A DNA stretch of 64,000 nucleotides from Tindallia sp. GTDB lineage: Bacteria; Bacillota; Clostridia; Peptostreptococcales; Tindalliaceae. The notes beneath the pieces were generated by a model that was not told the DNA's origin, ran no database searches, and worked only from the letters and a program-made list of their open reading frames with translations. Each line of letters opens with the position of its first letter. Positions within the stretch are counted from its first letter, which is position 1. The translations under genes were made by a program, and so were the position numbers. The stretch lies in NCBI GenBank assembly GCA_007134225.1, contig SLLE01000052.1, positions 1 to 64,000 on the forward strand, in the 5' to 3' direction. This document shows positions 45,061 to 56,125 of this stretch, piece by piece.

Positions 45061-45089
45061 TTGACGCCCGTAAGACTCGCTGTTATAAT
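45061..45089 (+). promoter_or_regulatory. Near-consensus sigma-A promoter of the T-box transcript
   Basis: TTGACG - 17 nt - TATAAT. Confidence 0.85.
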
Positions 45090-45095
45090 GTTACA

Positions 45096-45353
45096 TAATT
45101 ATTTAATAAAGTTGCGTTGAAGGAGACAAACAATAACGATTTAGTGGCAGAGAGCCGGTGGTAGCTGCGAACCGGAACTGGTCTTATTTGTTACTCACTC
45201 CTGAGCTGTTTCTGTGAAAGTTAGTAATGGAAACCGGTGGAACCGTTATCGCCAGGATTAAGTCCGTATGAGTGGTCTGCAGAGCAGGCAAAAAAGGTGG
45301 TACCGCGGGAACAGCTAAACCCGTCCTTTGCATTATTAAAGGACGGGTTTTTT
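45096..45353 (+). ncRNA. T-box riboswitch, probable tRNA-Leu specific (specifier CUC at 45194-45196)
   Basis: Stem I AGAGAG bulge and GGUGGUAGCUGCGAACC distal loop; CUC-A-CUCCUGAGC specifier context; T-box AAGGUGGUACCGCGG (45294-45309); terminator AACCCGUCCUUU-gcauuauu-AAAGGACGGGUUUUUU. Confidence 0.95.
45317..45353 (+). terminator. T-box regulatory (attenuation) terminator
   Basis: AACCCGTCCTTT-gcattatt-AAAGGACGGGTTTTTT. Confidence 0.92.
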
Positions 45354-45460
45354 GTATAGCCGATACCAGTCATACGAGAAAGGAGGAGCGAAGAAACGAG
45401 GATCTGAAATAAGTGAAATTGTCTGTTTATTTCAAAATTTCAAAATTTTAGGAGGAATTT

Positions 45461-45646
45461 ATGATGACACGTTTAACAAACAACCAACAAAACCAACAAC
45501 AATCTTTGTCGAATAAGGCAGCAGATATGATTCAAAATAGCAAAAAAGCCGTCAACCATCCAAAAAGACATTACCAATCCATTGAAGATTCCGGTTTTCC
45601 TACCATGAACTATTTCGGAACCGGTTCCATCAAGAGTGACTGGTAG
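45461..45646 (+). CDS. T-box-controlled small protein, 61 aa, Asn/Gln-rich N-terminus, unknown function
   Basis: MMTRLTNNQQNQQQSLSNKAADMIQNSKKAVNHPKRHYQSIEDSGFPTMNYFGTGSIKSDW; perfect AGGAGG SD 5 nt upstream; flanked by T-box and terminator. Confidence 0.85.
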   Translation: MMTRLTNNQQNQQQSLSNKAADMIQNSKKAVNHPKRHYQSIEDSGFPTMNYFGTGSIKSDW

Positions 45647-45663
45647 CCATATGGATATCATTT

Positions 45664-45705
45664 AAAAAAGCAGGGCACCCAAATCAAATGGCCCTGCTTT
45701 CTTTC
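45664..45705. terminator. Terminator after the 61-aa ORF (also faces convergent gene)
   Basis: AAAGCAGGGC-acccaaatcaaatg-GCCCTGCTTTCTTT. Confidence 0.85.
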
Positions 45706-45720
45706 TGCCTTACTACAACT

Positions 45721-46479
45721 CTACCAGTCCGTCGCCATGGATTTAAATAGCGCAGCAAACTCTCGAGTTGCGTAGTACCAATACAAATTTGTTGGTGAGG
45801 AGGCTGTAATGCCGTACGGGTCAATTCCGATTCTCCTCCCAATCAACTGGGCTCTTAAAAGATGATAATCACTGGTAATAATGACGATTTCTTCAATTTT
45901 CCCTGCTTCCTGAGATCGAAGGAGCGTGATGCCATTCCGAAGGTTTTCAAGCGTATTGGTCGACTGTTCCTCCATCAAAACACGACTCGCTTCAATACCC
46001 TGACCTTCGAGGTACCACTTCATCACCTGGGCTTCTGAGGCCAGTTGCCCTTCCGAACGGCCTCCCGCCACCACTACTTTTCCTTTTGGATTGTTGTTTA
46101 GATACTCCACAGCGTAATCAAGTCTGCGAGCAAGCGTATAGGAGGGTTCACGCCTGATAATTCCTGCCCCCAGCACGATGGCATAGTCAGCATTTCCATC
46201 CTGAGCTGTCATTGCCGCTGTCATGATCATCACTTGGACGATGACGAAAACTCCGGCCAGTGACAATAGCATCCATAATTTAAGTATCGTTAATCGATAA
46301 AACCAGCGATAGTTTCGTAAGCGATTCAGTCGCCAGAGCACCAGTTTTTTTGCGTGATGCAGGCTCAGAACTGCTACCCCCAAAATAATGATGACTAGAC
46401 TTTCAAAACGAACACCCTGAAGCAAAAATGCGTGAAGGATTCCCGCTACCAGCGTTCCAGTTCCAATTTTCCAGGTCAC
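45721..46479 (-). CDS. YdcF/SanA family membrane protein (DUF218)
   Basis: DYAIVLGAGIIRREPSYTLARRLDYAVEYLNNNPKGKVVVAGGRSEGQ; GTG start (46479) overlapping upstream TGA, GGAGGG SD. Confidence 0.88.
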   Translation of the reverse strand: MTWKIGTGTLVAGILHAFLLQGVRFESLVIIILGVAVLSLHHAKKLVLWRLNRLRNYRWFYRLTILKLWMLLSLAGVFVIVQVMIMTAAMTAQDGNADYAIVLGAGIIRREPSYTLARRLDYAVEYLNNNPKGKVVVAGGRSEGQLASEAQVMKWYLEGQGIEASRVLMEEQSTNTLENLRNGITLLRSQEAGKIEEIVIITSDYHLLRAQLIGRRIGIDPYGITASSPTNLYWYYATREFAALFKSMATDW

Positions 46480-55931: not shown

Positions 55932-55970
55932 AAAAAAATGGTCTGCCACCCTTCGGATGACAGACCATTG
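55932..55970 (-). terminator. TPP riboswitch expression-platform terminator
   Basis: Minus strand AATGGTCTGtCATCC-gaag-GGgTGgCAGACCATTTTTTT. Confidence 0.85.
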
Positions 55971-55984
55971 TTTAAAACGACGAT

Positions 55985-56063
55985 GATCCCTCCGCTGGCA
56001 TTATCCAGATCAGGTATCGGGTCGGAATTTCTTCCCTCTCAGCCGGATTGATCCAGCTCCCCG
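55985..56063 (-). ncRNA. TPP riboswitch (THI element)
   Basis: Minus strand CGGGGAGC...CCGGCTGAGAGGGAAGAAATTCCGACCCGATACCTGATCTGGATAATGCCAGCGGAGGGATC matches core consensus. Confidence 0.96.
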
Positions 56064-56125
56064 TTTTATTGTTACAACATTATTATAAACCTCCGCATTG
56101 TGTCTGTCAAGCAACCTGCCGGTTG

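Follow-up and report, generated by a model that had tools for sequence, protein, structure and literature searches.

A small protein gene alone under a predicted leucine T-box in Tindallia, with likely relatives behind isoleucine T-boxes in other Peptostreptococcales

Organisation of the locus

The window analysed here is the whole stretch of 64,000 nucleotides from Tindallia sp. (assembly GCA_007134225.1, contig SLLE01000052.1, positions 1 to 64,000 of the forward strand). Tindallia and its relatives are bacteria of the soda-lake type, and the genus is placed in the Tindalliaceae of the order Peptostreptococcales. Between positions 45061 and 45706 it carries a compact transcription unit, in which a promoter is followed by a T-box leader, an attenuation terminator, a Shine-Dalgarno (SD) sequence ~100 nt beyond that terminator, a small ORF and a second terminator (Table 1). 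These elements had been described in a first-pass annotation made from the sequence alone and all were recovered where it had placed them, together with the convergent ORF, which ends at 45721. In the window no co-directional gene lies 3' of the small ORF, and the earlier observation was upheld that the ORF is not followed by any synthetase, biosynthetic or transporter gene. The position and the hexamers of the promoter are preserved in the relatives, as judged from an alignment of the leaders. Since the whole layout recurs in five other genomes, the arrangement in the window is not a matter of chance. The 61-aa ORF is present as annotated; the start codon probably lies at the second ATG (45464), with which the start in the relatives aligns, and the protein would therefore be of 60 aa.

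The spacer block listed in Table 1 shows few changes across the six Tindalliaceae leaders, while the rest of the spacer is variable. A second GGAGG-like stretch is located upstream of this block and is accompanied by no common start codon. A leader peptide in the spacer was considered and rejected, the six spacers having on reading no start codon in common. Elsewhere in the window, a TPP riboswitch (RF00059, 60.1 bits) was detected at 55970-56073 on the reverse strand.

Table 1. Features of the transcription unit in the window
Feature	Position	Strand	Basis or remark
Promoter, sigma-70-type, TTGACG-17-TATAAT, extended -10	45061-45089	+	11/12 consensus matches
T-box leader (RF00230)	45108-45331	+	115.7 bits, E 6.7e-25, full length
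Predicted specifier codon CUC (Leu)	45194-45196	+	stem register calibrated on T-boxes of the same genome
T-box sequence AGGTGGTACCGCG	45295-45307	+	UGGU at 45298-45301 fits ACCA of tRNA-Leu(GAG)
Attenuation terminator and U tract	45317-45356	+	5' arm common to antiterminator
Short conserved spacer block ATTGTCTGTTTATTT / TTGTCTGTTTATT	45418-45432	+	alignment of six Tindalliaceae leaders
Shine-Dalgarno AGGAGG	45450-45455	+	present in 6/6 Tindalliaceae
61-aa ORF, Asn/Gln-rich variable N-terminus	45461-45646	+	ORF list, alignment with relatives
Conserved C-terminal motif TMNYFGTGSIKSDW	45602-45643	+	alignments
Terminator ending the monocistronic unit	45667-45700	+	-16.2 kcal/mol, z -3.3

Class and specificity of the T-box leader

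The covariance comparison suggested earlier places the leader above the RF00230 gathering score of 93 bits over model positions 1-219, and the RNA is an ordinary T-box. RF00230 matches precede the small ORF in all six Tindalliaceae genomes that carry it (orthologous leaders 106.9-129.8 bits), the range being 93.3-129.8 bits when the small-ORF leaders of relatives in other families are included. The mechanism of T-box antitermination is established. In the window, the attenuation terminator hairpin (45317-45350; -20.6 kcal/mol, z -6.3) and an antiterminator-like fold (-10.3 kcal/mol) use the common arm CCCGUCCUUU and are mutually exclusive. The predicted antiterminator fold is not stabler than shuffled sequences (z -0.1), as expected if the tRNA is needed for it. 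Anatomy and established T-box biology together make the cis-regulatory step, predicted antitermination, well supported.

Specifier codons were read in a register consisting of the 5' arm at leader offset 14, the codon, one base and the 3' arm, which was calibrated on the genome's own T-boxes upstream of known genes. The genome has 16 T-box matches, and in this register 9/9 resolved T-boxes of a known gene specified the amino acid expected (valS, trpE, pheS, serA, trpB, asnS, glyS and both leaders of ilvN-C, Ile and Leu). The ileS, thrS, cysS and ilvB leaders were left unresolved by the script in that register; by eye the specifiers are AUC for ileS, ACC for thrS and CUC for ilvB, with cysS ambiguous. 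All six Tindalliaceae small-ORF leaders were found to have the specifier CUC. A tRNA-Leu(GAG) is encoded in the genome (L070:146-231, reverse strand) with discriminator A (A73) followed by CCA, and the UGGU of the T-box is complementary to its ACCA end. Both the CUC specifier and the pairing of UGGU with discriminator A73, which had been proposed from the window sequence, are borne out by these results, and a Leu (CUC)-specific T-box is supported at the level of sequence.

Conservation and constraint of the small protein

The small ORF is present in all four genomes of Tindallia and in two of the three genomes of the sister genus, the third, in which the ORF was not found, being 75% complete. 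It lies directly behind a T-box in each of these six genomes, so that the recurrence after Leu T-boxes for which the first-pass annotation had called extends over two genera; as read from the loci, rarD and a ydcF-like gene flank the ORF in the Tindalliaceae. Compared with the window protein, the other Tindalliaceae sequences drop to 32-57% identity, while the last 24 residues are almost invariant within Tindallia and TMN[YF]FG[TA]GSxK occurs in all six genomes. An unconserved ORF with dN/dS near 1 had been named as the adverse outcome; the C-terminal block instead gave pN of 0.07-0.12 against pS of 0.50-0.77 (Tindallia pairs involving the window genome or G003), and the closest pair, G001 and G002, gave 0.07 against 0.39 over the whole ORF. 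Because pN is far below pS, the constraint, as far as codon analysis can tell, acts on the protein, with the N-terminus free to vary. Judged from these comparisons, the C-terminus is under strong purifying selection and the ORF is a real gene. The conserved part in the alignments is the last ~15-24 residues and not the Asn/Gln-rich N-terminus.

Searches in Pfam, NCBIfam, PHROGs and PDB returned no family for the protein or its alignment, all matches being at chance level. In PDB the window protein had no sequence match and the family profile only a chance-level match to Pumilio; the viral contigs searched gave no match. By sequence comparison, the protein is new to every one of these libraries. 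The available text of two T-box surveys lists hypothetical proteins and contains no such small-protein family (PMC2494555, PMC11477304), and the wider literature yielded nothing relevant on such a family. An AlphaFold model with six sequences had low confidence throughout (pLDDT 55, pTM 0.12) and no fold, which is consistent with disorder and would equally result from a shallow alignment of six sequences. The low model confidence and the variable polar N-terminus suggest that the protein may be largely disordered and carry a linear motif at its C-terminus.

Likely related small ORFs in other families of the order

A profile built from the six Tindalliaceae proteins gave weak matches in the order, among them G099 and G092, and 397 of its genomes were also scanned with a codon-degenerate motif. 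In three genomes outside the Tindalliaceae (G099, G092 and G159), which represent two other families of the order, a small ORF immediately following a T-box was found to end in the C-terminal motif [MLV]-N-[FY]-F-G-[TA]-G. The ORF of G099 has 65 aa (...TPVMNFFGTGAVKEDSLW; T-box 128.1 bits) and that of G092 49 aa (...TTLNFFGAGRMDDLF; T-box 105.5 bits), both ~230-250 nt 3' of the T-box core, and the motif search added G159, of the same genus as G092, with a T-box barely above gathering (93.3 bits). The specifier of all three leaders is AUC (Ile). Between G092 and G159 pN is 0.09 against a pS of 0.42. The motif search also gave two further genomes, G019 and G124, which have a small ORF with the motif and no detected T-box, that of G124 being near a contig end. 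The gene neighbourhoods in G099 and in the G092/G159 pair differ from the rarD/ydcF-like context of the Tindalliaceae. Similarity between families is limited to ~10 residues, with overall identities of 18-25%, and the length and the N-terminus vary freely among the members.

Apart from the five genomes named above, the weak matches examined in the order, which comprised all but ~30 of the weakest profile hits, were long proteins, or had neither a T-box nor a small ORF that would fit. Most genomes of the order had no credible match, including G008, of the same genus as G099. In 325 genomes of the class, the motif search gave no T-box-linked case besides Tindallia itself, and the matches left over from the class-wide HMM and motif searches were segments of long proteins, spurious reading frames or ORFs lacking a T-box. 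A rough estimate of chance, assuming that a 3-Mb genome has ~20 T-boxes and counting 700 nt of upstream sequence, amounts to ~0.2% per motif hit; ~0.1 T-box-linked hits are expected among the ~55 outside the Tindalliaceae, and three were observed, two in the same genus. Homology between the families is graded as likely, not proven, because it is based on ~10 residues and the common architecture. Since two further families have such small ORFs after Ile T-boxes, the link would be with branched-chain amino acids (BCAA) and not leucine alone; the leucine link proposed earlier thus stands for the Tindalliaceae (CUC) and is extended to BCAA by the AUC leaders elsewhere.

A second tiny ORF of 17 codons with a GTG start (VSDLPGDISR...) and an SD lies 3' of the small gene and before the terminator in G092 and G159 (L112:1078-1128 and L117:1638-1688), near-identical in the two genomes.

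Branched-chain amino acid genes, other T-boxes and CodY

None of the 16 T-box matches in the genome belongs to leuS. The other Leu T-boxes precede ilvB and ilvN-C (gene names assigned by reading translations). Tandem T-boxes precede ilvN-ilvC (C48:108307-108746; L020, L006), Ile (AUC) then Leu (CUC), and leuA is present further along the same strand. Two more T-boxes hint that aromatic metabolism and transport are controlled by Phe: one lies before a phenylacetate-CoA ligase-like gene (L007; UUC by eye and in one of several script registers), the other before a sodium:solute symporter-like gene (L017; UUC by eye).

The ilv-leu operon is an example of dual control by CodY and a T-box, and CodY is encoded in the genome. 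The best CodY box at the window promoter (11/15, shuffle p 0.48) is not above shuffles. Boxes of 12-13/15 occur in G159, G099 and G019 (p 0.01-0.04); the genome's own ilvN-C has 13/15 (p 0.007), and the non-BCAA control pheS also reaches 12/15. The promoter in G019 (L145), where the small ORF has no T-box, bears a 13/15 CodY-like box, AATTTTCAGAATTTT (shuffle p 0.01), and the BCAA response could be kept there via another sensor. A role of CodY as partner or co-regulator is no more than a lead.

Proposed function and alternative explanations

The leader RNA starting at the promoter would normally end at the attenuation terminator. Uncharged tRNA-Leu(GAG) would pair with the CUC specifier and, through its ACCA end, with the UGGU of the T-box, upon which the antiterminator would form and the downstream ORF would be transcribed. 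The product, a probably disordered protein of ~60 aa, may then bind a partner protein in trans through its C-terminal linear motif and so adjust BCAA supply or consumption, the candidate partners being CodY, a BCAA-degrading enzyme or a BCAA transporter. Action in trans is most likely, going by gene order, because the genes alongside are not the same in the different families and no co-transcribed gene follows in the window. From the architecture and by analogy we infer an intracellular effector that acts in trans by protein binding, and the analogy with anti-TRAP would make it a regulator or an inhibitor. Taken as a whole, the scheme of a monocistronic starvation-response unit giving rise to a trans-acting small effector is, in our judgement, probable; the starvation-responsive effector proposed in the first-pass annotation is strengthened, still as a proposal, by the finding of such ORFs downstream of Ile T-boxes in two more families.

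Instead, an enzyme or transporter employed under BCAA scarcity might contain the protein as a structural or accessory part, for instance as a small subunit or a stabiliser. Supply genes are the normal T-box targets in the available text of a survey (PMC2494555), and the conserved C-terminal motif might just as well be a tail for subunit docking. However, no obvious partner gene adjoins the ORF in the Tindalliaceae, where the neighbours are rarD and the ydcF-like gene, in G099 or in the G092/G159 pair, and a protein whose length and N-terminus vary so freely makes an accessory part unlikely. A transcript that works as RNA, with the leader or the 3' part regulatory and the ORF secondary, would suit a leader that stands alone and a short spacer block kept in six genomes; per site, synonymous changes greatly exceed non-synonymous ones in the C-terminal codons and across the G092/G159 pair, and the spacer is variable outside the short block, which leaves this explanation with little probability. 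A short protein in which the C-terminus is conserved and the remainder varies also resembles the precursor of a secreted or processed signalling peptide, and the 17-codon ORF downstream in G092 and G159 could be read likewise. Such a peptide is very improbable here: no hydrophobic signal segment was seen on reading the aligned members, no export or receptor gene adjoins in the window, and the motif is common to several families, whereas peptide signals usually diverge. A T-box relic outliving its lost gene, with the ORF there by chance, would explain why no recognisable function lies 3' of the T-box and is scarcely credible, being contradicted by an ORF, SD and T-box conserved in two genera under strong purifying selection.

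The trans-acting small effector may have a wider setting, namely a Peptostreptococcales family of BCAA-starvation-induced small proteins, governed by Leu T-boxes in one family, by Ile T-boxes in others and by none in at least two candidates, in which the N[FY]FG[TA]G motif would act on a shared regulator or enzyme as a second case of anti-TRAP logic; to this extended reading we give an even chance. If true, a second family of small proteins, unrelated to anti-TRAP and placed under BCAA T-boxes, would mean that T-boxes feed protein effectors beyond supply genes. What has been found has the appearance of a new family of small proteins induced by starvation, and its short conserved motif is usable directly as bait. 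Such genes escape notice: the protein libraries searched do not contain the family, and beyond the Tindalliaceae it took a weak motif and the RNA leader together to find its members.

Comparison with known systems

Leucine-specific T-boxes are known, for example, from the ilv-leu and leuS leaders of B. subtilis. The window leader is like these (RF00230) in its full architecture, CUC specifier, UGGU and terminator/antiterminator pair, and differs in controlling one uncharacterised small protein and not a gene for a synthetase, for biosynthesis or for transport.

Anti-TRAP is a small regulatory protein known to sit under a T-box. This regulator (RtpA/YczA) is described under a tRNA-Trp T-box in Bacillus (PMC11255114, PMC2494555), and CD1564 of C. 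difficile, an ACT-domain protein whose gene is preceded by a T-box, is assigned to the regulation of amino acid metabolism (PMC11477304). CD1564 is comparable as a T-box gene assigned to such regulation; its ACT domain is a known fold, whereas the window protein matches no Pfam domain. With anti-TRAP the likeness is closer in plan, a small protein gene directly under a T-box and switched on by uncharged tRNA. The T-box there is Trp-specific, whereas the specifiers here are Leu and Ile. The window protein has no Cys and thus none of the zinc CxxC sites of the Cys-rich, DnaJ-type zinc site; it has no sequence match in PDB, solved anti-TRAP included, and is probably disordered with a C-terminal linear motif, as the model suggests. 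The first-pass annotation was therefore right to set it apart from anti-TRAP homologues on its lack of Cys, and no known family was matched. The window protein is most likely analogous in logic to anti-TRAP and unrelated to it.
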